Shown in pieces: positions 4,972 through 32,203 of a stretch of DNA of 33,481 nucleotides. Position 1 is the stretch's first letter, and each line of letters starts with the position of its first letter. The DNA is from a virus. The DNA lies in IMG/VR virus record IMGVR_UViG_3300006052_000239, positions 1 through 33,481 of that record. One strand, given 5' to 3'. The notes beneath the pieces are model-generated. The model was not told where the DNA came from. It searched no databases and was given only the letters and a program-made list of their open reading frames with translations. A program made the translations under genes and the position numbers.

Positions 4972-4987
4972 ACCCAAAAGGAGCCTC

Positions 4988-5395: not shown

Positions 5396-5396
5396 T

Positions 5397-7991: not shown

Positions 7992-7992
7992 G

Positions 7993-8370: not shown

Positions 8371-8371
8371 T

Positions 8372-8587: not shown

Positions 8588-8590
8588 TTT

Positions 8591-14914: not shown

Positions 14915-14932
14915 ATAAGTAATATACTCCTG

Positions 14933-15025: not shown

Positions 15026-16326
15026 AGTTCTAATTTAACGGCGGCGATACCGTATTCCTCCCTAAGCGTTTTGATCTGCTCCCTAAAATGATTTCTCGTC
15101 CACTTATGACTTGCGTCCTTAATCAAGATGACTTTACCGCTCTCTTTACCGGTGTAGGTCCGCAACACTCTTCCAATTTGCTGTTGAAACCTACCCTTAG
15201 CCTTGCCTAGTCCCGCTATAATCACCCACTCAGCAGGTTTAGTATCCGTACCTTCTCCGAGAATTCCTGTAGTTCCAACTAGTTGCCTCATGGTGCCGTT
15301 GTTAAACATCGTGATATAATGCTTAGTGTCTTCGTTTACACCAGAGGCAAAGTAGCCTCCAGTTAGCTTGCAGATGTTTTCACCGTGCTTTATCTCAGTT
15401 ACTAGGCATAGGGTGGAATGTCCCTTCAGACGCTCCAGGAGGTCTGCTATGGCCTTGTTTCGGTCTTTATGGTTCACCACCAGCTCAGAGTACACTTCAG
15501 CCCAATAGTGCCCCTTAACCTTCTGCTTAGGGATCTCGATGTAATAGGCTTCGATGGGCACAATCATCTTAGCCGCTACCGCATCCTGATAAGACAGCCG
15601 GTATACCACCTGCCCGATAATGGACTCAAGCAGCATCTGCTCCTCATCTTGGGAGCGGTAGGGGGTGGCGGTGAAGTGGTAGCGGTAATAGATACCGCTC
15701 CAAGCCTTCTTGCTCAGGCGTCTATAGGTTGAAGCCGCACCGTGGTGAGCCTCATCCAGTATGAGCATCCCATAGTCCTTGGCTTGCTCTAGGGCAGGGG
15801 AATCAATGTTTTCGATGGTGATGCCCTTCAGGGAGCCGAAGTACTGCCGGAAGGAGTCTTGGAGCTGTGTTTTCAGGGTGAGGTTTGGCACCACGATCAG
15901 GACCGGCACCTGCATCTCCGCTATCAGGAGGGCCATTGTAATTGATTTGCCGCTACCGGTTGGCATGCTAATTGCGCCCCTATGCTCTCTCTTGGCTAGG
16001 GCTACAGCTTGCTGTTGTTGTAGGTATGGGGGGTAGGGTAGGGAAAGGGTGAAGAGGCCCTTGGTGGGCGCCACAGGCCGTCTGGTGTCATTCTGGGAAT
16101 ACTCTATCTCTTTGTCACCTAAGTATTCCACCAGCTTGCTTAAAAGTCCAGTTGGGAAGTCTCCCTTAGCCCCTATCAAGTAGCGTTTGGGACTCCTAGC
16201 CCTCCCCGCGAAGTATGCCACGCGGTTAGGGATAGTATAGCAGAGTACATTCCTTATTTCGCGGAACCTCTCCTGAGTCATCCCTTCCAAGCGTGACATA
16301 CTGTTGCCAATTACCAGTTTTAGCAT
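15022..16326 (-). CDS. SF2 DEAH helicase, UvsW-like, 434 aa
   Basis: ATP-dependent helicase/annealing enzyme likely acting on branched DNA during recombination and replication restart, as T4 UvsW does. Visible motifs: Walker A PTGSGKS (122-128), motif II DEAH (191-194), motif III-like TATP (219-222) and motif VI QIGRVLR (386-392). The N-terminal ~90 residues form a small domain typical of phage UvsW/XPB-like helicases. I choose the ATG at 16326: a longer frame to 16368 would start upstream of the promoter, and MLKLVIGNS matches the N-termini I recall for this family. There is no Shine-Dalgarno; the -10 box lies 7 nt upstream, so the mRNA is probably leaderless. It lies far from the UvsX and gp46/47-like genes and is transcribed the other way. 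Confidence 0.85.
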   Translation of the reverse strand: MLKLVIGNSMSRLEGMTQERFREIRNVLCYTIPNRVAYFAGRARSPKRYLIGAKGDFPTGLLSKLVEYLGDKEIEYSQNDTRRPVAPTKGLFTLSLPYPPYLQQQQAVALAKREHRGAISMPTGSGKSITMALLIAEMQVPVLIVVPNLTLKTQLQDSFRQYFGSLKGITIENIDSPALEQAKDYGMLILDEAHHGAASTYRRLSKKAWSGIYYRYHFTATPYRSQDEEQMLLESIIGQVVYRLSYQDAVAAKMIVPIEAYYIEIPKQKVKGHYWAEVYSELVVNHKDRNKAIADLLERLKGHSTLCLVTEIKHGENICKLTGGYFASGVNEDTKHYITMFNNGTMRQLVGTTGILGEGTDTKPAEWVIIAGLGKAKGRFQQQIGRVLRTYTGKESGKVILIKDASHKWTRNHFREQIKTLREEYGIAAVKLEL

Positions 16327-16333
16327 ATAATAG

Positions 16334-16362
16334 ATTATGCCACGATGGTCACCTGCGGTCAA
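16334..16362 (-). promoter_or_regulatory. Sigma70-type promoter for the leftward operon (leaderless start)
   Basis: On the minus strand: -35 TTGACC (16362-16357), 17-bp spacer, -10 CATAAT (16339-16334). The predicted start is at about 16327, next to the helicase ATG at 16326, giving a leader of 0-1 nt. It is about 35 bp from the divergent + promoter at 16397. Confidence 0.7.
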
Positions 16363-16396
16363 TCTCAATTATTTTTGCTATTCCTACACTTTTCAC

Positions 16397-16425
16397 TTGA
16401 CAGAGCACTTCACTAATCCTATACT
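16397..16425 (+). promoter_or_regulatory. Near-consensus sigma70 promoter facing the non-coding region
   Basis: -35 TTGACA (16397-16402), exactly 17 bp, -10 TATACT (16420-16425), start near 16432. No convincing gene begins for nearly 490 nt downstream. The transcript would cross the AT-rich repeat region, so it could supply a replication primer or a long leader. CACTTC (16406-16411) and GAAGTG (16429-16434) form an inverted repeat around the -10 box, a possible operator. Confidence 0.65.
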
Positions 16426-16471
16426 GAAGAAGTGACTAGTTAGCCTTAATTTTCACAAAATGCAACTTAAC

Positions 16472-16493
16472 GTAACGCTACTGTAACGCAACT
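16472..16493 (+). repeat. Tandem 11-bp direct repeat
   Basis: GTAACGCTACT (16472-16482) is followed immediately by GTAACGCAACT (16483-16493), 10 of 11 identical. One helical turn per unit puts both copies on the same DNA face, as expected for a pair of protein-binding sites. Confidence 0.6.
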
Positions 16494-16571
16494 TTTACTT
16501 TAACCCCCAACTTCCTACCTTTATACACCCTAATCTCATATAACCCATTACAGCTCTAAGTACCCGCTAAC

Positions 16572-16705
16572 ATTGTTAATAATGTAATATTACCTCTTAA
16601 ATTGTTAAGACAGTTTAGATAAATCAACCCTCTTATTAGAGCTGTAACCCTCTAATAAGATTGTTAAGATTATCGCAATCATTAACGAATATGAGCAATT
16701 GTTAA
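16572..16705 (+). repeat. Four ATTGTTAA boxes (iteron-like)
   Basis: Identical 8-mers start at 16572, 16601, 16660 and 16698. Those at 16601 and 16660 extend to ATTGTTAAGA, and the same 10-mer recurs at 31834-31843 inside the palindromic promoter there. The 16601 copy lies within TCTTAA-ATTG-TTAAGA, a short inverted repeat. They may bind a phage initiator or repressor; AT-rich composition could also produce some by chance. Confidence 0.5.
16631..16660. repeat. 11-bp perfect inverted repeat
   Basis: TCTTATTAGAG (16631-16641) and CTCTAATAAGA (16650-16660) are exact reverse complements with an 8-nt loop. An ATTGTTAA box begins at its last base. No T-run follows, so it is more likely a protein-binding or origin structure than a terminator. 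Confidence 0.65.
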
Positions 16706-16741
16706 CACTTCTTAACCTTTAAGTATCATAATCCTTGATAT

Positions 16742-16770
16742 TTGTTATTAATCCCCTTGCTTAATAACAA
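16742..16770. repeat. 10-bp inverted repeat overlapping the small-RNA promoter
   Basis: TTGTTATTAA (16742-16751) and TTAATAACAA (16761-16770) are exact reverse complements around a 9-nt loop. The right arm covers two bases of the -35 box (16757-16762) and the first eight bases of the spacer, the position expected of an operator. Confidence 0.6.
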
Positions 16771-16785
16771 CCGGTGTGTTATATT
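16757..16785 (+). promoter_or_regulatory. Sigma70-type promoter of the candidate small RNA
   Basis: -35 TTGCTT (16757-16762), 17-bp spacer, -10 TATATT (16780-16785) preceded by GTGT, giving an extended -10 (TGt). The predicted start at about A16792 is the first base of a perfect 7-bp hairpin, as in stable bacterial small RNAs. Confidence 0.65.
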
Positions 16786-16791
16786 AGACAT

Positions 16792-16878
16792 ATAGACGCC
16801 ACTCCTCGTCTATCTCCTCCACTCCCCTCCCCCGACTCCGGGCCTCTCTCCTCCCGTCGAGTCGGGGGATTCTTATTT
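16792..16878 (+). ncRNA. Candidate C-rich small RNA, ~87 nt
   Basis: Promoter, 5' hairpin, single-stranded C-rich body and terminator follow one another. Hairpin 1 pairs ATAGACG (16792-16798) with CGTCTAT (16807-16813); its loop is CCACTCCT. The unpaired body (16814-16828) is CTCCTCCACTCCCCT. The terminator stem follows, with loop CCTCTCTCCT. Three exposed CCUCC-like stretches are complementary to Shine-Dalgarno sequences. Bases 16845-16854 match 24273-24282 (leader of the phosphoesterase gene) over 10 bp, and 16811-16819 match the leader of the minus-strand 14553 gene over 9 bp. C-rich motifs that occlude ribosome-binding sites are known in other bacterial regulatory RNAs. No coding potential seen. 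It could instead be an attenuated leader. Confidence 0.6.
16829..16878 (+). terminator. Rho-independent terminator of the small RNA
   Basis: CCCCCGACTC (16829-16838) pairs perfectly with GAGTCGGGGG (16859-16868). The stem extends by CGGG/CCCG (16839-16842 and 16853-16856) after a 2-nt bulge. The tail ATTCTTATTT (16869-16878) is T-rich. No T-run exists on the other strand, so it acts rightward. Confidence 0.75.
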
Positions 16879-16883
16879 AGGGG

Positions 16884-16912
16884 TTGTGTTCTCTGAGCAC
16901 CAGTGTTATACT
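16884..16912 (+). promoter_or_regulatory. Sigma70-type promoter, leaderless, for the 16919 gene
   Basis: -35 TTGTGT (16884-16889), 17-bp spacer, extended -10 TGt-TATACT (16907-16912). Six bases follow before the ATG at 16919, so the predicted start coincides with the A of the ATG. Confidence 0.65.
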
Positions 16913-16918
16913 CTAGAT

Positions 16919-17122
16919 ATGAAATGGATGATATTGGTACTTATCGCTACTGGATGCACCACCCCTCCCACTATCCAAGACTGTATGGCTAAAGTGGAAA
17001 GGGTGGCGGGAAAGAAGAACGCAGATGCTAGGCAGCGGAAACGAGAAGAGAGCGGAGCGTATGAGATGTGCGTTCGGTATCAGTGCGATGCAGATGACGT
17101 GCTTGCTAACTTAGACTACTAG
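16919..17122 (+). CDS. Small putative lipoprotein, 67 aa, leaderless
   Basis: The signal segment MKWMILVLIATGC contains a lipobox-like IATGC. The mature part is highly charged (DARQRKREES) with three more Cys (DCMA, MCVR, QCDA). The frame extends upstream to a GTG at 16886, but that lies within the promoter, so the ATG at 16919 is chosen. No Shine-Dalgarno is visible, consistent with a leaderless mRNA. It is first in the rightward block, with the next gene 8 nt downstream. A small phage lipoprotein expressed from its own promoter could block superinfection or assist lysis; neither is shown. Confidence 0.6.
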   Translation: MKWMILVLIATGCTTPPTIQDCMAKVERVAGKKNADARQRKREESGAYEMCVRYQCDADDVLANLDY

Positions 17123-17130
17123 GAGGTTTT

Positions 17131-17307
17131 ATGGCAGATGTATATCAAGAGATGGCGTATGACGGTTTAACCCAAGATTACCTATTGGTGCTGAAGAGGA
17201 ACACTCAGCTAGAAAAAGATGTCGGTGAACTGATGCGGGAGAACTGCATCCTTCGCGAAATGTATGAACTCACCCAAAAGGAACTCAATGACGAAAAAAT
17301 TAAATAA
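17131..17307 (+). CDS. Small coiled-coil protein, 58 aa
   Basis: The ATG follows a strong AGGAGG (4-nt spacing) and is 8 nt after the lipoprotein stop. The product starts MADVYQEMAYDGLT and continues as one charged helix with heptad character (NTQLEKDVGELMRENCILRE). Such small coiled-coil proteins are frequent in phage early regions. It overlaps the next gene by 20 nt. Function unknown. Confidence 0.65.
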   Translation: MADVYQEMAYDGLTQDYLLVLKRNTQLEKDVGELMRENCILREMYELTQKELNDEKIK

Positions 17308-17665
17308 CGAAGATTGGGTGGATGATATCTCTAGTTTGTTGGCGAAAGAGAGCATTGAGCTGCTCTTGACCCAAGGCGAGAACCGAGGCGAAGGGCTTGG
17401 AGAGCTTTTGATTATCAACTTCATTGCTAAGTTCGTCGGTATGACGGTATTGACAACTTTGAAGTCTGAGCCGGTAGAGAAGAAAGCCAGCAACAAAGAC
17501 AAATGCAAGTTTGTTATGGAAAACTATGCTGGATTGAAGAGTGAGATGCAAGAGGCTATTGCGGCTGGATTTGCAGGTGCCTTTGAGTCCTTTACAGGGA
17601 AGCCGGTGGACTACTACTGCACCATCCAGCCAGTTCCAGAACCCACCAGCAAGTCAGTAAACTAG
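17288..17665 (+). CDS. Protein of unknown function, 125 aa
   Basis: I start at 17288 because AAAGGA lies 5 nt upstream; the in-frame ATG at 17264 has no ribosome-binding site. The protein has an acidic N-terminus (NNEDWVDDISSLL), a central helical and hydrophobic region (GELLIINFIAKFVGMTVLTT) that might be an amphipathic or membrane-proximal helix, and a Pro-rich end with two Cys further upstream. No family recognised. Confidence 0.55.
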   Translation: MTKKLNNEDWVDDISSLLAKESIELLLTQGENRGEGLGELLIINFIAKFVGMTVLTTLKSEPVEKKASNKDKCKFVMENYAGLKSEMQEAIAAGFAGAFESFTGKPVDYYCTIQPVPEPTSKSVN

Positions 17666-17682
17666 AAAGGAAGGGTATCTAT

Positions 17683-17967
17683 ATAACTTTACCGGACGAG
17701 AGGTATAGAGCAGTTAGATACGCTAGAGAGTTCCTTAGGGATCTCCTAGACCCCAAAAAGACACCTAAAGTGCCTAGAGCTATCCGAGACAGGGCGTATA
17801 GCTGCCTCAGGCACTTCCCCGGTGAATGGGACATGGAACAGGTAGCAAAATCAATAGCCGGTATTTTTAAGGAGCCCTATGAAGCTGACAGAGAAAATCT
17901 CAGTAGCAGCAGTAATAACCGTACTAGGAAAGGTAATCGTGGCCGGAATGTCAATAAAACTCGGTGA
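17683..17967 (+). CDS. BPSL0761-family-like small protein with apparent ATA start, 94 aa
   Basis: Read from the ATA at 17683, the product begins (M)TLPDERYRAVRYAREFLRD and continues DPKKTPKVPRAIRDRAYSCL, RHFPGEWDM. This matches the BPSL0761-type family as I recall it (MTxPxERTRAVxxTREFL, then P..VR..A..LLRHYP), whose start coincides with this ATA. AAGGAAGGG lies 7 nt upstream. Between the in-frame TGA at 17584 and residue 30 (ATG at 17770 region absent; CCT-AGA-GCT) there is no ATG, GTG or TTG, so either ATA initiates, or an ATG has mutated or been misread. The C-terminus (Ser/Asn/Arg-rich) overlaps the next gene by 89 nt and may be recently extended. Biochemical role of the family unknown. 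Confidence 0.6.
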   Translation: MTLPDERYRAVRYAREFLRDLLDPKKTPKVPRAIRDRAYSCLRHFPGEWDMEQVAKSIAGIFKEPYEADRENLSSSSNNRTRKGNRGRNVNKTR

Positions 17968-18076
17968 CTTCTCCTTCACCTTTGGCGGTATTGATGGCAC
18001 CACAATCGCAGCTATATTAACCCCCTGCCTCGGTGGAGTACACCTTGAGTCCTGGGTGAAAGGGAAAACAGAATGA
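17879..18076 (+). CDS. Small holin-like membrane protein, 65 aa
   Basis: Good Shine-Dalgarno (AAGGAG, 5 nt). The N-terminal half is hydrophobic (ISVAAVITVLGKVIVAGMSI) and a second apolar segment includes GGIDGTTIAAILTPCLGG. The arrangement of two short membrane segments separated by an F-G-x-I-D-G turn resembles small holin or membrane proteins seen in other phages. It overlaps the next gene as ATGA. A holin role would complement the endolysin or the transglycosylase, but is inferred from topology only. Confidence 0.5.
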   Translation: MKLTEKISVAAVITVLGKVIVAGMSIKLGDFSFTFGGIDGTTIAAILTPCLGGVHLESWVKGKTE

Positions 18077-18312
18077 ATTTAATCAGCACCGCATTAAAAA
18101 AACTATTTGACATGGGAGAAGACACCAAAAAGAAAGTAGTTATAACAAATACCGACATCTCTATAGGAGAGCACATATATCATTATGGTGGGTATTGTTT
18201 TGAAGAGGCCCTGTTTAATTCAGTGTGGTTCTTTGCGGTTAAATTAGCAGAAGAAAAAGTGCTGGAAAAAGTTAAAAAATCTTTGAATGGAACTTATGAC
18301 CATCAAAGTTAA
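18073..18312 (+). CDS. Protein of unknown function, 79 aa
   Basis: ATGA-coupled to the holin-like gene. The N-terminus is helical and basic (LISTALKKLFDMGEDTKKK), followed by a beta-like segment (VVITNTDISIGEHIYHYGGY) and a C-terminal helix (AEEKVLEKVKKSLNG). An aromatic patch FNSVWFFAVKL could contact a membrane. Overlaps the next gene by 17 nt. No family recognised. Confidence 0.5.
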   Translation: MNLISTALKKLFDMGEDTKKKVVITNTDISIGEHIYHYGGYCFEEALFNSVWFFAVKLAEEKVLEKVKKSLNGTYDHQS

Positions 18313-18739
18313 AATCATTATCGCAGCGGTATCCCTCCTCGTCGCCTTTGCCTTCGGCAGATTCACAACTCCCACTAAAACCATCACAGTCACCCATACG
18401 GTAGAAGTGGAGCATAAGACCCAAAAAGAAGACGATACCGACCATAAAGTGACCACCATCACTAAAACCCATAAACCAGACGGTACCACCACTACAGTCA
18501 CTAAGATCACAGATGACCGTGACAAAAAGGAAACTGGTACTGACGATACCAATACAACTACAGACCAGAAGAAAGAAGTCACTAAAGGGGGCAGTAAAAT
18601 CAACTTCTCCATTATGGGGAACCCTGCCACTAATGTCTACGGCGCCACGGTAAATAAAGAGATACTGGGTCCAATAACCGCTGGACTTTTCTTCCTCAGT
18701 AATGGTACTATTGGGATAACGGCAGGATTAAACTTCTAA
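18296..18739 (+). CDS. Membrane-anchored Thr-rich protein, 147 aa
   Basis: Residues ~5-22 form one membrane helix (IIIAAVSLLVAFAFGRF). A Thr/Lys/Asp-rich stalk follows, with alternating charge (TITVTHTVEVEH, KVTTITKTHKPDGTTT), and then a Gly-rich beta-type end (KINFSIMGNPATNVYG, GLFFLSNGTIGITAGLNF). N-in/C-out anchoring with a periplasmic extension is compatible with an inner-membrane spanin, but the stalk is beta-prone rather than a clear coiled coil. I prefer the second ATG (18296), which has GGA 5 nt upstream; 18287 is also possible. Function open. Confidence 0.5.
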   Translation: MTIKVKIIIAAVSLLVAFAFGRFTTPTKTITVTHTVEVEHKTQKEDDTDHKVTTITKTHKPDGTTTTVTKITDDRDKKETGTDDTNTTTDQKKEVTKGGSKINFSIMGNPATNVYGATVNKEILGPITAGLFFLSNGTIGITAGLNF

Positions 18740-18748
18740 AGGAAATAT

Positions 18749-19285
18749 ATGTGTACACATGAGTTTAAAACGTATGTAGGATTTAGTGACTCTTTCGAGT
18801 ATTGTAGTAAATGCAATAAGAAGAGAAGCGAGATTACAGAAGCTCCGCACGTATTTAGCGGCGACTCAGTTACAAAAGCCTTTAAAGATGCGTATAAAGA
18901 TTATGACTGGAGTTCTTTTAAGGGACTTTCTGCATGGCTTCCAGACACGGGAGAACAAGTAATCACCTTCGGGACAGACAGAACACCGGTATCTCATCCA
19001 GAAAGACTTACTGCCGCTCCTATATACTCTCCTTATAATTGGCAGCGAAGATACGGCACAGAGATTCAATATAGCGTGGATGGCAACACTTGGACATCTT
19101 CCACAGCTCCAGAACAGGAAAGCTATGCCGGAGAGGCCAGCCATCAGGTAGTTTGCGTAGACAGACAAAAAGGGCTGATTACTCTTGCGCTGGACGATAT
19201 TAGTTGCCATAAACACTTTGAAGTAGGAATGTTAATAGACACTACTTTGGCAGTATTTGACGACGAAGAAGGAGACGAAGAATGA
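18749..19285 (+). CDS. Protein with N-terminal zinc-ribbon-like motif, 178 aa
   Basis: Strong Shine-Dalgarno (AAAGGA). The first 24 residues carry MCTHEF and FEYCSKCNKK, a Cys/His set suitable for one zinc ion. The rest is a mixed-fold domain rich in Trp/Tyr (SAWLPDTGEQVITF, YSPYNWQRRYG, YSVDGNTWTSSTAPE) with an acidic tail (DDEEGDEE). The acidic tail recalls proteins that interact with single-stranded-DNA machinery, but no family was recognised. ATGA coupling to the next gene. Confidence 0.55.
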   Translation: MCTHEFKTYVGFSDSFEYCSKCNKKRSEITEAPHVFSGDSVTKAFKDAYKDYDWSSFKGLSAWLPDTGEQVITFGTDRTPVSHPERLTAAPIYSPYNWQRRYGTEIQYSVDGNTWTSSTAPEQESYAGEASHQVVCVDRQKGLITLALDDISCHKHFEVGMLIDTTLAVFDDEEGDEE

Positions 19286-19689
19286 AAGACCTAACCGCAT
19301 ACTATGAAGAACTCTCAGCAGATATCCAGAAAGCCTACGAAGGGGGCACCACACTGGAAGAGGCTGAACGCCTGGCAGCTAAGTTTTTGGGAGCGCAGAT
19401 GTGGCTTGTACCTGAGCTGCAGAGAGCTGGATTAGATGCTCGTATGCGTAAAGCGGGAGTGAAGGCTATTAAATCAGCGGTTAGAATTGAGGAGATTAAG
19501 AAATTTGATAAAAAACCTACTGAGGGGGCATTAGAAGATGCAGTAAACCTCAACGAACTGGTGCGGGGAGAGCAAACCGCTTTGGATGAAGCAGAGGTGC
19601 TGGTAGAGATGCTTAATAACTACCTGAGTATATTCACTAATTCCCACATTTTCTTCAGGGGCATCGCAAAGGGGTCTTTCGGTGGGTAA
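19282..19689 (+). CDS. Helical protein of unknown function, 135 aa
   Basis: Almost entirely helical by composition (AYYEELSADIQKAYEGG, LEEAERLAAKFLGAQM, LNELVRGEQTALDEAEVL). The pattern of amphipathic helices and length match small phage proteins of unknown role next to the RecA-like gene. Overlaps the following GTG-start gene by 8 nt. Function unknown; a recombination accessory role is only a positional guess. Confidence 0.55.
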   Translation: MKDLTAYYEELSADIQKAYEGGTTLEEAERLAAKFLGAQMWLVPELQRAGLDARMRKAGVKAIKSAVRIEEIKKFDKKPTEGALEDAVNLNELVRGEQTALDEAEVLVEMLNNYLSIFTNSHIFFRGIAKGSFGG

Positions 19690-19915
19690 ACTTTTAATCT
19701 TTGCGGTTATGTTAGTCGGATGCTCCAATCCTCCGCTTAAATTTCATTTTGCACAAGAAGTGGTAGTGACAAAAGGTTTCTTTAGAGATTGCACCGGGCG
19801 TATTGATTATTACGACACAAAGAGCGGCCTCTACGGCGTGGATTTAACTTGCGGTCCATACATACTCAGCACCAAAGAAATCGAAGAAAGTTACCTGAAA
19901 GGTAAAAATGAGTAA
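19682..19915 (+). CDS. Small putative lipoprotein, 77 aa (GTG start)
   Basis: The GTG at 19682 has AAGGGG 7 nt upstream; no better start exists. The signal GKLLIFAVMLVGC ends in lipobox MLVGC. The mature part is ~60 residues with two Cys (RDCTGR, LTCGPY), a likely disulfide, and a small beta-barrel-like pattern (EVVVTKGFF, GRIDYYD, YGVDLTCG) resembling an SH3-type fold. It could act as an outer-membrane spanin or exclusion lipoprotein; no partner is evident. Overlaps the UvsX-like gene by 8 nt. Confidence 0.55.
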   Translation: MGKLLIFAVMLVGCSNPPLKFHFAQEVVVTKGFFRDCTGRIDYYDTKSGLYGVDLTCGPYILSTKEIEESYLKGKNE

Positions 19916-20819
19916 AATCAACGTCCAATCTATCGTTTCAGACATGCGTAAACTTTATTCTAAGGATAAAAAGGTACAGTCAATCATTTGTACAGGGGAT
20001 ACGGTCAAAACAGAGTATACCAGCGAAGATGTTATCCCCCTCCCGGCAGGGCACCCGCTCTCTCTCCTAACGGGTCTGCCGGGACTCCCTTTCAATAAAA
20101 TTGCTCAGATTGTGGGCAAACCAGACACCGGAAAATCCACCTGGGCAGGTGAAACTATGGCCGCAGCCCAACGCTCCGGTGCTCAAGTAATCCTCTTCGA
20201 CAGTGAAGACAAGTTCGACGCTCGCCGCTTCAAAGACCACTTCAAAGGCAATCCCGAAGAAATCCTCATGGTAAAGACCAACGAAATCCTTAAGGGGGGC
20301 GAACTGGTACGCCGGTATATCACCGCCATCAAGGAACAGAAGGAAGACGCCAAAATCCTCTTTGTCTGGGATAGCGTAGGCGGCAGCCAATCCCGTTCCC
20401 ACGCCGAGCGCGAACTAGACAGTGAGAAACATGCCCAGCCCGGACAGGACGCGAAGGAAAACGGCAGCATCATGAAGATGGTGGTAGCCCTCATTAACAA
20501 GTACCCAGACTCCATTTCGGTATACATGGCTAATCAGTGCTATGACAAGATCGGCTTCATGATGAAGGGACAGGCGGCATCTGGAGGCACAAAGATCGAA
20601 TATCATTCATCTTTTATCGTCATGCTCAAGCGTATTAAAGTATTGACTAAGGTTGTGAAAGGGGTTACAACTAAGGTAGGAATAGTGTCCCGAGCCACAG
20701 TCACTAAGAACCATTTGAGCCAGAATGCAACTTCTGTTCATCAATTGGACTTTGAGATCACGGCAGCGGGAGCTAAGTTAACTGATTCAGAGGAGACAGA
20801 CGAGGATGAGGAAGCCTAA
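19908..20819 (+). CDS. RecA/UvsX-like recombinase, 303 aa
   Basis: ATP-dependent strand-exchange protein that would coat single-stranded DNA and drive homologous pairing. Walker A GKPDTGKST (70-78), a catalytic Glu-equivalent in FDSEDKFD (Glu100), Walker B ILFVWDSVG (Asp155), and an L2-like region after residue 200 (MANQCYDKIGFMMKGQAASG). The C-terminus is acidic (DSEETDEDEEA), as in RecA and UvsX. Length fits phage RecA-like proteins (about 300-390 aa). It is followed immediately by SbcD- and SbcC-like genes, the partners of T4 UvsX in recombination-dependent replication. Confidence 0.88.
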   Translation: MSKINVQSIVSDMRKLYSKDKKVQSIICTGDTVKTEYTSEDVIPLPAGHPLSLLTGLPGLPFNKIAQIVGKPDTGKSTWAGETMAAAQRSGAQVILFDSEDKFDARRFKDHFKGNPEEILMVKTNEILKGGELVRRYITAIKEQKEDAKILFVWDSVGGSQSRSHAERELDSEKHAQPGQDAKENGSIMKMVVALINKYPDSISVYMANQCYDKIGFMMKGQAASGGTKIEYHSSFIVMLKRIKVLTKVVKGVTTKVGIVSRATVTKNHLSQNATSVHQLDFEITAAGAKLTDSEETDEDEEA

Positions 20820-21992: not shown

Positions 21993-22003
21993 AGGGGTAA
22001 TTT

Positions 22004-24265: not shown

Positions 24266-24270
24266 CCTTG

Positions 24271-24284
24271 GAGGAGGAGAGAAA
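24271..24284 (+). promoter_or_regulatory. Extended purine-rich ribosome-binding site, possible small-RNA target
   Basis: GAGGAGGAGAGAAA precedes the ATG at 24285. It holds two overlapping GGAGG-type elements. Bases 24273-24282 are exactly complementary to 16845-16854 in the candidate small RNA (10 bp), which would cover the Shine-Dalgarno. Confidence 0.45.
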
Positions 24285-24977
24285 ATGAGTCAATGTATAT
24301 TGGTAATTTCAGACTATCACGCGCCCTATAACCACCCAGACGCCCATAGATTCCTCGCGGCAGTAAAGAAGAAGTACAAGCCTACGGAAGTCGTTTGCAT
24401 CGGTGACGAGGCTGATTTTCATGCTCTCTCCTTCCACGACTCAGATCCAGACCTAGACGCCCCCGGCGAAGAGCTACGGAAAGCTATCAAGGAGCTGAAG
24501 AAGCTCTATAAGCTGTTCCCCAAATGTACCGTGATTGAGTCTAATCACGGCTCTATGGTGCTCCGGAAAGCCCTAGCTAACGGGATGCCCAAAGCAGTGC
24601 TCAGGAGCTACAATGAGATCCTAGAGGCCCCTAAAGGCTGGATATGGAAGTTTGACCACAAGACTAATACTCCTCTGGGACCAGTTTACTTCTGCCACGG
24701 TAAAACAGGAACTGCGGGTAACTTAGCGAAATCTTACGGATTATCTACAATTCAGGGGCACTTCCATGAAAAAGCTCAAATCACCTACATCTCTACTCCA
24801 GAAAAACTTATGTTCGATGCTCATACTGGCTGCCTTGCTGATGACAATTCTCTTGCCCTTGGCTACAACAAGATCAATCCCAAGCGCCCTATTATGTCTA
24901 TTATCGTCATTGTTAACGGTATTCCTCATATCGTCCCGATGATTGTCAAAAATCGTAAATGGACAGGTACTCTGTAA
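24285..24977 (+). CDS. Calcineurin-like metallophosphoesterase, 230 aa
   Basis: Dimetal phosphoesterase fold with all motifs: SDYHAPY (Asp10, His12), CIGDEAD (GD), ESNHG (NH), FCHGKTG and GHFHE. No partner domain or signal peptide, so cytoplasmic. Phage members of this group include nucleases and phosphatases whose substrates are mostly unknown; here it is distinct from the SbcD-like enzyme (no DNA-binding cap and a different spacing). Expression may depend on its very strong, purine-rich leader. A nucleic-acid or nucleotide substrate is likely given the neighbours, but not shown. Confidence 0.75.
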   Translation: MSQCILVISDYHAPYNHPDAHRFLAAVKKKYKPTEVVCIGDEADFHALSFHDSDPDLDAPGEELRKAIKELKKLYKLFPKCTVIESNHGSMVLRKALANGMPKAVLRSYNEILEAPKGWIWKFDHKTNTPLGPVYFCHGKTGTAGNLAKSYGLSTIQGHFHEKAQITYISTPEKLMFDAHTGCLADDNSLALGYNKINPKRPIMSIIVIVNGIPHIVPMIVKNRKWTGTL

Positions 24978-24996
24978 TATCAACTACTTAGCATCC

Positions 24997-25025
24997 TTGA
25001 CAACCCGCATCCAATAGGGCATACT
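24997..25025 (+). promoter_or_regulatory. Sigma70-type promoter, leaderless, for the transglycosylase gene
   Basis: Consensus -35 TTGACA (24997-25002), 17-bp spacer, -10 CATACT (25020-25025). Six bases follow before the ATG at 25032, so transcription should begin at the start codon. No Shine-Dalgarno at usable distance. Confidence 0.7.
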
Positions 25026-25031
25026 CTATGA

Positions 25032-25427
25032 ATGAGCCTAGCAATGATGTTTCTTACTGTATCGCAGCTACTTTCCCTTCCAACTGGTATGTTAAGCGCA
25101 ATCTGCTATACAGAGAGCAAACATATCCCGAACCGCGTCCATCGCGACGATGGTGGAAGCAGCTCCCTAGGAATATGCCAAATCAAACTAAGCACAGCCC
25201 GTTCTATGGGATACAAAGGCACCGCGCAAGGACTCATAGATAAGCCAGCCACCAACATCTACTTTGCGGGGCAATATCTCCGGTATCAATTGTTCAGATA
25301 TAATCACAATTGGTTTAAAGCGATAGCCGCCTATAATTCAGGTAGCCTTAAACTAGATAATCATGGTAAGATAAGGAATCAGCGGTATGTGAATCAGGTA
25401 ATGGCTGCATTTAAGGAGGGAAGATGA
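25032..25427 (+). CDS. Lytic transglycosylase (SLT-like), 131 aa, leaderless
   Basis: Cleaves the glycan strand of peptidoglycan. Motif order matches family 1 lytic transglycosylases: CYTESK with catalytic Glu28, SLGICQIKLSTAR (the GLMQI..TA element, 45-57), and AIAAYNSG near residue 98. The first 20 residues are hydrophobic but probably the first helix of the domain rather than a signal peptide. The predicted mRNA begins at the ATG. ATGA coupling links it to the HExxH gene. It may be a second endolysin or a virion-associated enzyme; isolation from the virion genes and its own promoter favour an intracellular product. Confidence 0.8.
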   Translation: MSLAMMFLTVSQLLSLPTGMLSAICYTESKHIPNRVHRDDGGSSSLGICQIKLSTARSMGYKGTAQGLIDKPATNIYFAGQYLRYQLFRYNHNWFKAIAAYNSGSLKLDNHGKIRNQRYVNQVMAAFKEGR

Positions 25428-25735: not shown

Positions 25736-25760
25736 TTCTAGTCCTAGGTAGTGTTACAAT
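25732..25760 (+). promoter_or_regulatory. Sigma70-type promoter of the dNMP kinase gene
   Basis: TTGATT (25732-25737), 17-bp spacer, extended -10 TGt-TACAAT (25755-25760); start near 25767. This transcript has a normal short leader with AGAGGAG before the ATG at 25779, in contrast to the leaderless set. Confidence 0.6.
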
Positions 25761-25778
25761 CTTAGAAAGAGGAGCAAC

Positions 25779-26321: not shown

Positions 26322-26350
26322 GCAGTAAACAATAAACAAAGGAGCAAGTA

Positions 26351-26848
26351 ATGGCATTTAAACGTAAAGCAGATAGTAGTCAGGGAGAGCAGTTCAAGTT
26401 CTCCGCAATTGGCGACTCAATCACCGGTGTCTATCTCGGCAGTCACGACTTTGAAGGGGACTATGGCCCTACGAAGAAGCATCTGTTTAAGACGGACTCT
26501 GGCATCAAGGTCATCTTCGGTAAGAAGCAACTTACCGAACTCTTAGCCGGTGAAAAGACCGGTCAACTTATGCGCGTCACCTATGATAGCGATAAGAAGA
26601 TGGCAAAAGGTCGCGCACCCCTCCAACTCTATACGGTGGACATTGACGATGAATATCAAGCATCTGAAGATGAAGTCACCGAGGCAGTGGCCGCCGCAGA
26701 AGAGGGCGAGGACTACGATGCCGAGGATGAAGCTGAAGTCGAAACCGCTCCTGTCAAGGCAAAGCCACGGGCAGCCGCCCCCGACGCCTCCCGCCAAGCA
26801 GCGGTACAGGCCCTCTTGAATAGGGGGAAAAAGAACGCAACGGCTTAG
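26351..26848 (+). CDS. Putative single-stranded-DNA-binding protein, 165 aa
   Basis: An N-terminal ~100-residue domain with OB-fold-like strands (GDSITGVYLGSHDF, KHLFKTDSGIKVIFGK, QLMRVTYDSDKKM) is followed by an acidic region (EEGEDYDAEDEAEVE) and a Lys/Ala-rich tail. SSB proteins of phages share an OB domain and acidic tail, but here the extreme C-terminus is basic (NRGKKNATA), which is atypical. Location between dNMP kinase and primase-helicase supports a replisome role. A 109-nt non-coding spacer follows. Confidence 0.6.
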   Translation: MAFKRKADSSQGEQFKFSAIGDSITGVYLGSHDFEGDYGPTKKHLFKTDSGIKVIFGKKQLTELLAGEKTGQLMRVTYDSDKKMAKGRAPLQLYTVDIDDEYQASEDEVTEAVAAAEEGEDYDAEDEAEVETAPVKAKPRAAAPDASRQAAVQALLNRGKKNATA

Positions 26849-26957
26849 GACGCACTTCGCACAAATTATTGGACGAATCGGACCCTAAAAGCAGGGAAAG
26901 CCCCCTGGCCTTGAAGGCTTGACGCGAGGGAGAGACCTCAGTTTTTAAAGGAGAAGT
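26849..26957 (+). other. 109-nt non-coding spacer before the primase-helicase
   Basis: Longest gap inside the replication block. No ATG or convincing promoter in it. Contains GC-rich segments able to form small hairpins: CCCT/AGGG around 26893-26906 and GCCT/AGGC near 26918-26928. The Shine-Dalgarno AAAGGAG lies at its end. Probably a structured leader or processing site; no known riboswitch recognised. Confidence 0.35.
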
Positions 26958-28838
26958 ATGCTCTACGTGGTGTTACCCCCAGATTGGCTTAAAGCAGAGT
27001 TTCCCGAAGTGCGTACAGAGCAGCTTGAATGCTCCTTCGAGGAAGCCTTAGAGTTTAACGCAGCAGGATATAACCTGTTCTATTACCCCAACTGCCCCAA
27101 GAACCCAGGCACCGCCTTCATTAAAGCCCATGAGGTAGACCAGTTCGATTACGTATTCGTAGACTGCGACCTCAAGGATGGATTCTGGCCCGATAAAGAT
27201 ACCTTTGTGGCAGAACTGCACCGGTGGGGGCCTACGCCCACTCGCATCGTAGACAGCGGCAATGGCATCCACGCCTATTGGAAGGTAGTGGACTTAGACG
27301 CCCATTCCTTCCTGCGCCTCCAACGCCGCGCCGCCCGCCACTTCAGCACCGACTTAGCGGTGTCCCAGCTTAAGCAGCTTATGAGAGTCGCGCCCTCGAT
27401 GAACACTAAGGACCCCCTCAACTATAAGCTCTGTGATATCCTCTCTAGCTCAGATATAGAATATACCGCTGAGTGCCTAGATAAAGCCCTCCCTATCATC
27501 TCCCAAGAGGACGAAAACTACTGTCAGACCCATTACGATAAAGCCTACCAACTGGAGTCAGACATCAAGATTGATGAACGCATTCCAGAGAAGTTTAGCC
27601 GCCTCCTCCGCACTAGCAAAGAGGTTAAAGAGATTTGGCGCTCCGCATCCGATGACAGGAGCAAAACTGACTACCGCCTCGCCCATATCCTTTACGCAGA
27701 GGACTTCACCAAGGAAGAGGCTCTCTCCGTCCTAGTGAACTGTAGCAAAGCTCTCTCCCGCGCTCCCATCCACCGGTACAACTATGCTCTTAACATCGCA
27801 GACAAGATTTGGCCTGCCGCCTCCGACGAACCCACAGTGCAGCTCTCCCACTCCGTAGCTGACATCTTAGCTCGTACCGGTAATATCAAAGGCACTCCAT
27901 TCCCCTGTTGGGAGGTGTTTGATGGCACTCACAACGGCTTCCGACTCACTCAGGTTATGGGCCTCATCGGGCCTTCTGGGGGCGGTAAGACCACACTCGC
28001 CATGAACTTCTTCTATTGGTTCATTAAACGCAATCCCCAATATATTCACGTATTTGTATCCCTTGAACAACCCCAAGAAGAAATTGCAGACCGATGGGTT
28101 AAAATTACACAAGGAAACGACAAGCTGCATGACCGCGTTCATGTCCTCAGTAACTACAATGAAGATGGTAGCTATCGAAATCTCTCCCTCTCCGAGATTG
28201 AAACCTATATAGTTGACCTTGAGAAGCGCCTGAACACCAAGGTGGGATGTGTCGTTATCGACCATATCGGCGTCCTAAAGAAGCAAAGCAAGGAAGGCGA
28301 GAACCAAGGGCTAATCGATGTTTGCCACGGTATGAAAGCCTTTGCAAAGCGCACCAATACCTTCCTAGTGATGCAATCCCAGACCTCAAGGGAGAAGGCT
28401 GCTGGAGGCGACGTAGAACTGGACAAGGACGCCGCCTATGGCACCTCCATGTTCGAGTGGTATTGTGACTATGTTGTTACCACCTGGCAGCCCCTTAAAA
28501 GAATCTACACCCAGGCACCGAATATGCTTTGCTCTGCCTTCAAATATGCTAAGATCAGACATAAGAACACTCGGAGAGATGCCATTAAAGAGGACGCGGT
28601 ATATATCTTGATGTTTGATCCAGAATCAGAATTGCTGTCAGAAATGACCCAGATTGACGAAGAGGCCTATGAGACTTGGAGCAGCATAGCCACTAATATC
28701 AGAAACAAGGATCGACGTAGAGAACCGAAAAAAATGACTAAGATCGACTGGACCGGTAAGGGAGACAAAAATGGAGAAGTTAAACATAATCGAGACAGCG
28801 GCGGGAGTACAGGACCTAATAGAGTACCTGGAGGATAA
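26958..28838 (+). CDS. Primase-helicase fusion (AEP-type primase plus DnaB/RecA-type helicase), 626 aa
   Basis: The N-terminal ~150 residues carry archaeo-eukaryotic primase marks: FVDCDLKD (Asp69, Asp71) and SGNGIHAYW (His105), followed by RVAPSMNTKDP, as in RepB/PrimPol-like primases. After a helical linker, a RecA-fold helicase begins near residue 315: Walker A GPSGGGKT (338-345), VVIDHI (Walker B) and MQSQTSREKA (DnaB motif 3-like). One protein would unwind the fork and prime the lagging strand, like T7 gp4 but with an unrelated primase type. The 3' end overlaps the polymerase gene by 68 nt. Confidence 0.85.
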   Translation: MLYVVLPPDWLKAEFPEVRTEQLECSFEEALEFNAAGYNLFYYPNCPKNPGTAFIKAHEVDQFDYVFVDCDLKDGFWPDKDTFVAELHRWGPTPTRIVDSGNGIHAYWKVVDLDAHSFLRLQRRAARHFSTDLAVSQLKQLMRVAPSMNTKDPLNYKLCDILSSSDIEYTAECLDKALPIISQEDENYCQTHYDKAYQLESDIKIDERIPEKFSRLLRTSKEVKEIWRSASDDRSKTDYRLAHILYAEDFTKEEALSVLVNCSKALSRAPIHRYNYALNIADKIWPAASDEPTVQLSHSVADILARTGNIKGTPFPCWEVFDGTHNGFRLTQVMGLIGPSGGGKTTLAMNFFYWFIKRNPQYIHVFVSLEQPQEEIADRWVKITQGNDKLHDRVHVLSNYNEDGSYRNLSLSEIETYIVDLEKRLNTKVGCVVIDHIGVLKKQSKEGENQGLIDVCHGMKAFAKRTNTFLVMQSQTSREKAAGGDVELDKDAAYGTSMFEWYCDYVVTTWQPLKRIYTQAPNMLCSAFKYAKIRHKNTRRDAIKEDAVYILMFDPESELLSEMTQIDEEAYETWSSIATNIRNKDRRREPKKMTKIDWTGKGDKNGEVKHNRDSGGSTGPNRVPGG

Positions 28839-30897
28839 GGACTTAGTTGCATTTGATACCGAGACTACTGGAATAGCCAAAGACAGTAAAATCATAGGGT
28901 TATCTGTCTGCGCTGAACCTAATGTAGCATTTTATGTCATTACTTCCGCTTGGGATACAAAAGAACAGTCTTTAGTGGTCACTGATACCGTTAGGAGGAT
29001 GGACGGTCTTTGTATGGCGCTGCAAAAGAAGAGGCTTATAGCCCACAACGCAGTTTTCGATTGCGCTATGATAGCCAACAATTACGGCGTAGATCTCATG
29101 CCAAGCGTACATAGTGACACAATGATCCTCGCCCACCTCCTTGACGAGAACCGCAGAGTGGGCCTCAAGGAACTCTGCGCTAACCTCTACGGTGACAGCG
29201 CTAAAGCCGAACAGGACGAAATGAAAGCCTCGGTGACCGCTAACGGTGGCCTCCTCACCAAAGCCTGTTATGAGCTATATAAGGCAGATGCCCACCTAAT
29301 CGCCAAATACGGGGCCAAAGACGCCATCCTCACCTATAACCTCTTCTATGAACTGCTCCCCGAACTCTACAAAGAGGGCCTAGACAAGTTCTTCTATGAG
29401 GACGAGTCCATGCCCCTCCTGAGAGGCTGCACATACCAACTGAACACCGTAGGTCTCAAGATTGACCTAAAAGGCCTCCAGCAGCTCCGTAAAGACCTCG
29501 AAGTGGAGATCATGGAGACTAGGGGCTATATCTACAAAGAAATCGAACCTCATGTCAAACAGAAGTATCCTGGAACCGGTAAAACCAATCATTTCAATAT
29601 CGGTGCCCCCCAACAGATATCCTGGCTGCTATTCGACAAGCTAGGTAACAACTTCACCCGCCTCGGTGACACCGGCAGGGAGCTGTGCCACGCCCTAGAG
29701 TTGCCGCTCCCCTATACCAACCTCGCCAAGCGTAACTTCATCCAAGCATGTAAAGACCGCAAAGGATGGCATTGGCGCGACCCCGGTACTGTCTGGGACA
29801 AAAAGACCCGTAAATACAAAGGGAAGGCCAAAGTTAACGACTATTGGACCTATCTTAGCGCAGATGCCACGACCCTAGCCAACTACGCAGAGAAGTACAA
29901 GTGGGTTAAGGCCCTGCTCCAGCACAACAAAGCTACCAAGATGCTCTCCACGGTAGAAGGTATAGAAGAGGCGACCAAATATGGAATCATCCACCCCAGC
30001 TTCCTACAGCACGGCACAACCTCTGGGCGGTACTCTAGCCGCTACCCCAACTTTCAGAATCTACCTAGAGATGATAAACGCATCAAGGCTTGCATCGTCT
30101 CCCGCCCAGGAAAGGTATTCGTGGGAGCAGACTACTCCCAGCTGGAGCCCAGGGTTTTCGCTTCCCTTTCCAAAGACGAAAGACTCCTCCAATGCTTCAA
30201 AGACGGAGATGACTTCTACTCGGTGATCGGTGCAAGCGTATTCGGCAAATCAGACGCCACAATGAAGAAAGACGACTCCCCAAACTCTTTCCCAGTGAAG
30301 TACAAGAAACTCAGAGAAGTGGCTAAGGTTATCGCCCTCGCCACACCCTACGGTACCTGCGCCCCCCAAATGTCCTCAGAGCTGAAGAAGAAGGCCAATC
30401 TAGAGAAGAGCATGGATGAGTGTCAAGAGATCATCGAGGACTATTTCGCCAACTATCCTAGCGTCCATAAGATGATGCTGGCAGCTCATGAGCAAGCCAA
30501 AACCGAAGGCGTAGTCTATAACCTTTTCGGACGCCCTCGCCGCATCCCTAAGGCCAAAGAGATCAAGACCAAATATGGCAAGATGCAGCATAAGGACCTC
30601 CCTAGAGAGTACCGCACTCTCCTCAACCTCGGTATGAACCATACCGTACAAAGCACTGGAGCCAGCGTAGTTAACCGCGCTGCTATTAGATTCCTTAGTC
30701 TTGTCGAGGAGTTAGGGTGGAAGGATATCAACCTCATCCTAAACGTCCACGATGAATTAGTGGTGGAATGCCCTGAAGACGTAGCCGATGCAGTAGTGAC
30801 CCTCCTGAAAGAGGCTATGGAGAACACCGTGGTGCTCCCTGGGGTGGATCTAATCGCAGAACCTAAAATTGGTCATAATCTTGCGGAGTTAAAATGA
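28771..30897 (+). CDS. Family A DNA polymerase with 3'-5' exonuclease, 708 aa
   Basis: Replicative polymerase. Exonuclease motifs: Exo I FDTETTG (Asp29, Glu31), Exo II IAHNAVFD, Exo III YGAKDAILTY. Polymerase motifs: A VGADYSQLEPR (about 450-460), B KVIALATPYG (Lys and Tyr-Gly), C NVHDELV (659-665). No 5'-3' exonuclease domain; length matches T7-like gp5 (~700 aa). AAGGGA lies 7 nt before the ATG, which is inside the primase-helicase gene (68-nt overlap). ATGA coupling to the next small gene. Confidence 0.93.
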   Translation: MEKLNIIETAAGVQDLIEYLEDKDLVAFDTETTGIAKDSKIIGLSVCAEPNVAFYVITSAWDTKEQSLVVTDTVRRMDGLCMALQKKRLIAHNAVFDCAMIANNYGVDLMPSVHSDTMILAHLLDENRRVGLKELCANLYGDSAKAEQDEMKASVTANGGLLTKACYELYKADAHLIAKYGAKDAILTYNLFYELLPELYKEGLDKFFYEDESMPLLRGCTYQLNTVGLKIDLKGLQQLRKDLEVEIMETRGYIYKEIEPHVKQKYPGTGKTNHFNIGAPQQISWLLFDKLGNNFTRLGDTGRELCHALELPLPYTNLAKRNFIQACKDRKGWHWRDPGTVWDKKTRKYKGKAKVNDYWTYLSADATTLANYAEKYKWVKALLQHNKATKMLSTVEGIEEATKYGIIHPSFLQHGTTSGRYSSRYPNFQNLPRDDKRIKACIVSRPGKVFVGADYSQLEPRVFASLSKDERLLQCFKDGDDFYSVIGASVFGKSDATMKKDDSPNSFPVKYKKLREVAKVIALATPYGTCAPQMSSELKKKANLEKSMDECQEIIEDYFANYPSVHKMMLAAHEQAKTEGVVYNLFGRPRRIPKAKEIKTKYGKMQHKDLPREYRTLLNLGMNHTVQSTGASVVNRAAIRFLSLVEELGWKDINLILNVHDELVVECPEDVADAVVTLLKEAMENTVVLPGVDLIAEPKIGHNLAELK

Positions 30898-31139
30898 ATA
30901 ATTATGATCTTAAAATGAGCGACACGGTGTCGGCACTCAAAGAATACTACGATATCAGTGCCTTACCAGAAACAGATAGCATCAAATATTTTTTAATCCT
31001 GAGATATAAGGCCAAAGCAAGCCCCCGCCTTATAGCAGAGATGGCAAGACTTAGAGAAGAAGGAAAGAAAGCCTTTCCGGCTTATATGCAAAAATTAATT
31101 TATCATCCTAACCCATTCCTTGAAATTATTAAGAAATAA
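30894..31139 (+). CDS. Protein of unknown function, 81 aa
   Basis: ATGA-coupled to the polymerase gene. Helical and basic (SPRLIAEMARLREEGKKAFP), with Tyr-rich segments (ALKEYYDIS, FLILRYKAK). Given its tight coupling it may be a polymerase accessory protein, but no family was recognised and there is no thioredoxin-like feature. Confidence 0.5.
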   Translation: MNNYDLKMSDTVSALKEYYDISALPETDSIKYFLILRYKAKASPRLIAEMARLREEGKKAFPAYMQKLIYHPNPFLEIIKK

Positions 31140-31158
31140 CCTAATAATAGTTCTAGAC

Positions 31159-31187
31159 TTGGGAGTTGAATAGCGCTATTCTGATAT
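31159..31187 (+). promoter_or_regulatory. Weak promoter with a 14-bp perfect palindrome (possible operator)
   Basis: GAATAGCGCTATTC (31168-31181) is a perfect palindrome in the spacer of a weak -35/-10 pair, TTGGGA (31159-31164) and TGATAT (31182-31187), ahead of the 31201 gene. The palindrome is certain; the promoter is doubtful. A dimeric repressor site would explain it. Confidence 0.4.
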
Positions 31188-31200
31188 CAGGAGAAACGAT

Positions 31201-31479
31201 ATGAACAAGATCACGAGTGAACAAGTAGTAGCCCTTCTTAAGAGTACCGATGGAGCAATCTTCTCTGTCACCTTCGTAAAGAAGGACGGAACGGATCGCG
31301 ACATGGTTTGCCGCCTCGGCGTCACCAAACACCTCAAAGGCGGCGAGCAGGCCTACGATCCCGCTGAGTATGACCTCCTCTGTGTCTTTGACATGCAGAA
31401 GGCAGCTTATCGGTCCATTAACCTGAACACCCTCAAGAGAGTCAAACTTGATGGCCAAGAATATGAAGTGATTCAATAA
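31201..31479 (+). CDS. SH3-like barrel protein (WYL_2/DUF2693-like), 92 aa
   Basis: The sequence FSVTFVKKDGTDRDMVCRLG, then KHLKGGEQAYDP, LLCVFDMQ and YRSINLNTL follows the pattern of the small phage SH3-beta-barrel family I recall as WYL_2. These are short barrels with an initial helix; most are of unknown function, possibly binding nucleic acid. Shine-Dalgarno AGGAG, 7 nt. Located after the 14-bp palindrome, so it may have separate control. Confidence 0.65.
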   Translation: MNKITSEQVVALLKSTDGAIFSVTFVKKDGTDRDMVCRLGVTKHLKGGEQAYDPAEYDLLCVFDMQKAAYRSINLNTLKRVKLDGQEYEVIQ

Positions 31480-31499
31480 CCTAACAAGGAGTAGAACGT

Positions 31500-31610
31500 A
31501 TGAAGATCATTGAAGTATCATGGATCACGCTTGAGAACCTTAACAAATTGATAGCCAAAGGCTACATGGTCCGTATCGTGGGTAACCCATCCACTAAGAA
31601 AGGGAAATGA
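31500..31610 (+). CDS. 36-aa micro-ORF
   Basis: ATG at 31500 follows AAGGAG with good spacing, 20 nt after the previous stop; the next gene begins 1 nt after its TGA. The product starts MKIIEVSWITLENLNKLIAK and ends in a basic KKGK. A short helix with amphipathic character; function unknown. Placement and ribosome-binding site argue that it is translated. Confidence 0.55.
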   Translation: MKIIEVSWITLENLNKLIAKGYMVRIVGNPSTKKGK

Positions 31611-31611
31611 T

Positions 31612-31797
31612 ATGAAGACCAGCGAACACGTTAGAGATGTCCTAGAAGCTATTGAATCTGTTAAACTTAGGATAGAACAGGCGCACAAATCAGGGCAGTT
31701 CTGCTCTATTACCAGCCTGCTCCTAGACCTCGCCGCCCTTCAAGCCTGTTTAGCAGTAGAGGTTGAAAAGCTCTTAAAGGGAGATAAAGCCGCGTAA
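31612..31797 (+). CDS. Small helical protein, 61 aa
   Basis: Good Shine-Dalgarno (AAAGGGA). The product is two or three amphipathic helices (HVRDVLEAIESVKLRIEQAH, LLLDLAALQACLAVEVEKLL) and may be a helical hairpin or dimer. It precedes the palindromic promoter at 31820-31858, with no terminator between. Function unknown. Confidence 0.55.
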   Translation: MKTSEHVRDVLEAIESVKLRIEQAHKSGQFCSITSLLLDLAALQACLAVEVEKLLKGDKAA

Positions 31798-31819
31798 TTG
31801 CTAGCAAATAAAAATAGTT

Positions 31820-31858
31820 AATATAACACTTGCATTGTTAAGATGCAGGTGTTATATT
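31820..31858. repeat. 16-bp near-perfect inverted repeat spanning a promoter
   Basis: AATATAACACTTGCAT (31820-31835) and ATGCAGGTGTTATATT (31843-31858) are complementary at 15 of 16 positions (the remaining pair is T-G) around a 7-nt loop. The loop and its neighbours contain ATTGTTAAGA, shared with the origin-like region. The -35 box is inside the left arm and the -10 box ends the right arm. The symmetry also yields CTGCAT-N17-TATATT on the minus strand. Confidence 0.75.
31830..31858 (+). promoter_or_regulatory. Sigma70-type promoter, leaderless, for the 31865 gene
   Basis: -35 TTGCAT (31830-31835), 17-bp spacer, extended -10 TGt-TATATT (31853-31858). Six bases follow before the ATG at 31865, placing the predicted start on the A of the ATG. 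Embedded in the inverted repeat, so likely regulated. Confidence 0.65.
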
Positions 31859-31864
31859 ACTTAT

Positions 31865-32203
31865 ATGAACAACATCAAAAGTAAATTTAAGCGTTTCTTC
31901 CAAAAAATCAAAGACCGGTTCCCTTCCCGCATCCCCGACGGGATGACCGCTCACAATGAATGGGTACAATCCCTCATTGACACATACGGCTTCCCCAATA
32001 ACGATAGCGTTCGCTTCACCTTTGCCTCCATGATCCTTCAATTGGGTCAATTGGACGCCTATAAGCCTAAGCGTGACTTTGCCCTTGCCGGCCTCGCAGC
32101 CGCAAGCAAAGAGATTGCCCTTGCTCGCATGAAGGAGCTTAAGGCAGCTAATGACGAGAAGGTACAGGCTGAAGCTAATGTCACCCCAATTACAACCTCC
32201 TAA
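31865..32203 (+). CDS. Protein of unknown function, 112 aa, leaderless
   Basis: The frame extends 10 codons upstream, but those lie inside the promoter, so the ATG at 31865 is used. The N-terminus is strongly basic and aromatic (NNIKSKFKRFFQKIKDRFPS), then a helical domain with EWVQSLIDTYGFPNNDSVRF and a long C-terminal helix. No Shine-Dalgarno is visible. The basic helix could bind nucleic acid or membrane. Overlaps the next gene by 26 nt. Confidence 0.6.
   Translation: MNNIKSKFKRFFQKIKDRFPSRIPDGMTAHNEWVQSLIDTYGFPNNDSVRFTFASMILQLGQLDAYKPKRDFALAGLAAASKEIALARMKELKAANDEKVQAEANVTPITTS

Follow-up and report, generated by a model that had tools for sequence, protein, structure and literature searches.

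We analysed a 33,481-base virus contig from IMG/VR (IMGVR_UViG_3300006052_000239), possibly a fragment, which is referred to below at its full length as the window. Several of its genes have sigma70-type promoters lying directly against the start codon, an arrangement that would give mRNAs without a leader. An earlier note had proposed this for four genes, encoding a helicase, a lipoprotein of 67 amino acids (aa), a lytic transglycosylase (SLT) and a 112-aa protein, and had described them as lacking a Shine-Dalgarno (SD) sequence. A pattern search uncovered a fifth site of the same type, overlooked in that note, before a 118-aa lipoprotein gene on the minus strand (ATG 14914). The genes and their promoters are as follows.

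14558–14914, minus strand: gene for a 118-aa predicted lipoprotein (lipobox LSSC)
14915–14949, minus strand: its promoter, TTGCCT (14949–14944), 17-bp spacer, TATATT (14926–14921), 6 nt to ATG 14914
15022–16326, minus strand: gene for a UvsW/ResIII-type helicase, 434 aa (phrog_16, E 7.8e-63; PF04851), no SD at its ATG
16327–16362, minus strand: its promoter, TTGACC (16362–16357), 17-bp spacer, CATAAT (16339–16334), 7 nt to ATG 16326
16884–16918, plus strand: promoter of the 67-aa lipoprotein gene, TTGTGT (16884–16889), 17-bp spacer, TATACT (16907–16912), 6 nt to ATG 16919
16919–17122, plus strand: gene for a 67-aa predicted lipoprotein (MKWMILVLIATGC...), first of a rightward operon, no SD
24997–25031, plus strand: SLT promoter, TTGACA (24997–25002), 17-bp spacer, CATACT (25020–25025), 6 nt; predicted +1 at the A of ATG 25032
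25032–25427, plus strand: SLT gene, 131 aa (PF01464, E 3.6e-16), short hydrophobic N-terminus, no SD
31830–31864, plus strand: promoter of the 112-aa gene, TTGCAT (31830–31835), 17-bp spacer, TATATT (31853–31858), 6 nt to ATG 31865
31865–32203, plus strand: 112-aa gene, conserved downstream of the DNA polymerase gene
31853–31873, plus strand: 21-nt TATATTACTTATATGAACAAC, identical to 14926–14906 on the minus strand and covering the -10 box, discriminator, +1 and first three codons

The four promoters described in the earlier note read as it had given them, in their boxes, 17-bp spacers and distances of 6–7 nt to the ATG. We scored all 964 ATGs on both strands of the window for the best promoter whose -10 box ends 6 or 7 nt upstream, using approximate E. 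coli sigma70 frequencies. The top five were exactly the four noted starts and ATG 14914, with scores of 9.4–11.7 against 7.5 for the best ATG that is not a gene start (Fisher p ~1e-7 at score 8). At the helicase gene, the spacing would place +1 either 1 nt before the ATG or, if a purine is chosen, on the A itself.

All five genes start with ATG, their -10 boxes lie ~10 bp before the start codon, and the predicted transcribed regions contain no SD. SD-like sequences do occur farther upstream at two of them: an AGGT ~15–18 nt before ATG 31865 (-6.4 kcal/mol) lies 5' of the predicted transcription start, and an AGGAG near ATG 14914 lies upstream of the -10 box and so would be absent from the transcript. 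Most other genes do carry an SD, as the earlier note had stated: of the remaining 42 starts on the list, 31 pair with the anti-SD at -5 kcal/mol or better. As a separate observation, the shared TATATTACTTATATGAACAAC amounts to an identical promoter/start cassette at two unrelated genes, those for the 118-aa lipoprotein and the 112-aa protein, 17 kb apart.

Conservation of the lytic transglycosylase start

Single-protein searches with the helicase and the polymerase returned no relatives. The following gene, just upstream of the SLT gene on the same strand, served as a syntenic anchor.

24285–24977, plus strand: metallophosphoesterase gene (phrog_221, E 1.4e-58)

A search with its product gave eight syntenic relatives, the closest 69–76% identical, and an alignment of those relatives' polymerases (A1) then found ~59 loci of the same group in IMG/VR, with 49–58% polymerase identity. 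Some of these were the same contigs again; duplicates were removed by similarity of their upstream sequences, and the remaining loci still share ancestry. One contig of the group (L127, PLNN01000002.1) was binned in a Candidatus Omnitrophota metagenome-assembled genome from a fen, possibly a host lead and possibly a case of mis-binning.

In the window, the SLT start at ATG 25032 is supported by alignment of N-termini and by an in-frame TGA directly upstream; downstream starts with an SD were considered and rejected. We compared 28 distinct SLT starts, counting that of the window; in 25 of them a sigma70-type promoter ends exactly 6 nt before the ATG, with the consensus TTGACA, 16–17 bp, TATACT. 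The sequence logo of these 25 carries information at -35 to -30 (TTGACA), -14 (G), -12 to -7 (TATACT) and the ATG, so that, counting the A of the ATG as +1, the hexamers sit at textbook sigma70 positions. A-11, T-7 and the ATG itself are invariant (25/25), the extended -10 G is present in 20, and a pyrimidine at -1 precedes the A at +1 in 18. Mean pairwise identity is 0.68 in the hexamers but much lower elsewhere: 0.32 (spacer), 0.31 (discriminator) and 0.27 (farther upstream). This randomisation of spacer and discriminator is our main argument that the retained positions are under selection.

Two loci lack such a promoter, and both have an SD instead (L058, -7.3 kcal/mol; L127, -9.2 kcal/mol); in L058 the SLT gene overlaps the upstream gene by 4 nt. 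Three members found later (L140, L155, L169) also fit the leaderless layout, as do six SLT genes that have a longer, different N-terminus or encode a distinct SLT type (L057, L063, L064, L079, L102, L105). Leaderless SLT genes occur on both sides of the midpoint (deepest) split of the polymerase tree, which is most simply explained if the leaderless start was present in the common ancestor, and it is probably ancestral for this gene.

Outside the clade, promoter-like boxes lie 5–7 nt before the ATG of SLT genes in L028, L160, L163, L168, L175 and L176 (in L028, GTGACA-17-TATTCT-7 nt-ATG near 6333–6345), and other SLT genes have plain SDs, for example in L149, L164 and L173. The layout may extend more widely than the clade.

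Gene specificity and the 112-aa gene

An unbiased scan of ~55 related loci counted strong promoters by their distance to the ATG of an open reading frame: 31 end 6 nt before it, versus 0–10 for any one of the other offsets between 0 and 24. The main families among these 31 were SLT (17) and the 112-aa gene (5). By comparison, 15 other conserved families with at least five distinct members each had between zero and two members with a promoter at 6–7 nt, and good SDs predominated in all but one of them. Together with the ranking of the 964 ATGs, the offset scan rules out chance as the origin of the promoter–ATG spacing.

The 112-aa family behaves differently from SLT. Its 39 distinct members comprise nine that are leaderless, 29 with a short SD leader and one that is unclear, and well-supported branches of the polymerase tree require the leaderless label to have changed no fewer than three times. 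Many of the SD-led members have a recognisable promoter upstream, of the type found at the leaderless ones. Because the SD of the leadered members begins shortly after the predicted transcription start, these genes provide independent support for the placement of promoter and start. In L016, the predicted message begins AUGCGAGGGAAUAUG and so combines a 5'-AUG with an SD before a second in-frame AUG, plausibly an intermediate between the leaderless and SD forms. The protein itself had no Pfam or PHROG match. An alignment of 34 members (A3) shows the motif LPxGMTEF..W, and a confident, mostly helical structural model (predicted local distance difference test score 94) found no fold match in PDB or BFVD.

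For the remaining genes the comparison gave a different result. Relatives that hold the helicase gene (G002, L011, L016/G008, L082) did not have the leaderless form at its start, and we dropped the helicase as a conserved case. For the lipoproteins of 67 and 118 aa, searches turned up no relatives, so the case for their leaderless starts comes from the window. The proposal of leaderless starts for selected genes is supported by the sequence comparison, with the exact 6-nt spacing of SLT kept in 25 of 28 starts and specific to the gene among conserved families. The idea that the four noted genes form one conserved class found no support, given the differing helicase start and the lack of lipoprotein relatives.

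Interpretation and competing explanations

It is likely that a gene-selective leaderless class exists in these phages and that the SLT leaderless start is ancestral and selected within the clade. The promoter position, its conservation, the missing SD and the replacement of promoter and SD by one another are directly visible in the DNA. From these we infer that transcription would begin at the A of the AUG and that translation would be leaderless. The five window genes would be read from sigma70-type promoters with +1 at the A of the ATG (at the helicase gene, there or 1 nt before), giving mRNAs with a 5'-AUG that ribosomes would engage without a Shine-Dalgarno interaction. Since the SLT gene lies without an SD inside a co-directional replication operon, read-through RNA would be expected to yield little enzyme, and a translatable message would arise only from its own promoter and with a 5'-AUG, a "promoter-locked start", which is the reading we prefer for SLT. 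Taken by itself, such an insulating role for the leaderless start is somewhat less likely than not. We are more doubtful of a translation lock operating across the clade, in which the hydrolase, embedded in the replication operon, would come solely from RNA of its own promoter, never from read-through messages, and its output would follow the status of 70S ribosomes and initiation factors during infection. A link to 70S ribosomes or initiation factors is possible, with phage phiYS40 as a precedent (PMC3594737).

Could the pattern instead reflect the host? If the host were rich in leaderless genes, any promoter-proximal phage gene might become leaderless, with no gene specificity. TA-led leaderless genes average 13–39% in some bacterial groups (PMC3160421), and the leaderless-type sites of the window are mostly at the first genes of a transcript or after a gap. 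However, the same clade retains an SD leader in 29 of 39 112-aa genes, many with the same promoter type, while SLT is leaderless nearly throughout. The Omnitrophota, the only host lead (from one contig), showed no leaderless excess in a crude test of the metagenome-assembled genome and 57 genomes of the phylum, with counts of 149 at offset 6 and 143 at offset 11. We regard a host-wide habit as unlikely, and a by-product of genome compactness as slightly more so. In the latter case the promoter would be confined to the narrow space between SLT and the preceding gene, with the leader lost without functional consequence. The upstream gene does end only 14–17 nt before the SLT ATG in L014, L088, L090 and L095, with the promoter lying within its 3' end. 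Yet most loci have 32–60 nt between the two genes (201 in L051), in many cases enough for a promoter and a short leader, and the spacing is still exactly 6 nt; moreover, the 112-aa gene accommodates both a promoter and a short SD leader.

It is similarly improbable that transcription starts at several positions or 1–5 nt before the ATG, which would leave tiny leaders. In favour of this are the 1–2 nt by which start-site choice can shift, the 7-nt spacing at the helicase gene, and two SLT loci that deviate by 1–2 nt: L103 narrowly misses, its offset being 8 (5 if a long spacer is allowed), and L135 scores best at offset 5. The exact 6 nt in 25 of 28 SLT starts and the frequent pyrimidine at -1 before the A at +1 speak for the precise position, and a leader of 5 nt or less could not hold an SD and would be functionally leaderless anyway. 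The most improbable of these explanations by far is an incidental promoter, with SLT made from a polycistronic message by coupling or by SD-independent initiation. The SLT gene is co-directional with and close to the upstream gene, and the 14–17 nt gaps in four loci make translational coupling conceivable; but the hexamers are conserved amid near-random surroundings, and an SD is present in both loci that lack the promoter. A selected leaderless SLT start has to be weighed against this conceivable coupling, against the variable start-site choice and the deviating L103 and L135, and against three further points: the weak -35 boxes at some sites (L016, L053); the E. coli matrix, which may not be the host's; and our choice of SLT starts, which took the in-frame candidate with the best promoter near the expected N-terminus and so somewhat favours the hypothesis. 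This last bias is unlikely to be the cause, because the offset is fixed at 6 although 5 and 7 were allowed, and because of the family controls.

Leaderless phage genes are already known as a kind. Most middle and late mRNAs of phage phiYS40 of Thermus thermophilus are leaderless, initiation factor IF2 is raised and IF3 lowered, and the host group is rich in leaderless genes (PMC3594737). The present phages resemble phiYS40 in having a class of leaderless transcripts and differ in that this class is restricted to a handful of genes, chief among them that for a cell-wall hydrolase, in a clade that is otherwise SD-led. In the window, five of 47 listed starts are of the leaderless type and most others have an SD, in contrast to a phiYS40-type programme with most middle and late transcripts leaderless. 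The lambda cI mRNA likewise starts at its start codon without an SD (PMC9031893, a general review; PMC3160421), but cI is one gene, encoding the repressor of a temperate phage, whereas here a lysis-type enzyme and other genes are involved. In the TA-led class, a TANNNT ~10–12 bp before the start codon is taken as leaderless (Zheng et al., 2011; PMC3160421). That is a statistical class in host genomes, whereas the SLT start is conserved orthologue by orthologue, with a full -35 box and an extended -10. We found no paper on leaderless lytic transglycosylase genes, nor a conserved use of leaderless starts for a cell-wall hydrolase, in the open-access literature searched.

The physiological purpose of leaderless mRNAs in organisms where SD starts predominate is not settled. 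In these phages the SLT gene appears to have stayed leaderless across deep divergence among neighbours that retain their SDs, and the 112-aa gene toggles between the leaderless and the SD form under one promoter type. Together they would provide a ready comparative and reporter system for the role of the leaderless start.

Phage context and other features of the contig

Besides a DNA polymerase of family A, the window encodes a DnaB-like helicase, a UvsX-like recombinase, SbcC/D-like proteins, the metallophosphoesterase, a deoxynucleoside monophosphate kinase, the UvsW-like helicase, the SLT transglycosylase and an M15 peptidase. The related contig G002 (58,984 bases) also carries a terminase large subunit and an RNA ligase, which identifies the window and its relatives as tailed phages; in the core group, most of the longest contigs measure 53–59 kb. 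In the window, an incomplete contig, we noticed neither a repressor nor an integrase.

A nucleotide search found no near match to the window among isolated phages. Among the matches listed, the metallophosphoesterase is less than 50% and SLT ~27–33% identical to proteins of isolates, and with identities this low no isolate names the host. Four large proteins encoded in 393–12169 (642, 869, 864 and 1192 aa) lack PHROG matches, except that a C-terminal stretch of the 1192-aa protein matches phrog_37034 (function unknown). The 864-aa protein (5397–7991, product unknown) had no match among isolated phages. The genes for the DnaB-like helicase (26958–28838) and the DNA polymerase (28771–30897) share 68 nt, read in different frames. 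An Rfam search gave no hit in the right part of the window.

An intergenic region of ~540 bp (16380–16919), rich in GTTAA/TTAAC words, separates the divergent genes for the helicase and the 67-aa lipoprotein. It contains two further promoter-like sites, TTGACA-17-TATACT at 16397–16425, with no gene behind it, and TTGCTT-17-TATATT at 16757–16785, and a GC-rich hairpin with a T-rich tail near 16829–16876. The region could be an origin, the source of a small RNA of ~80 nt ended by the hairpin, or both.

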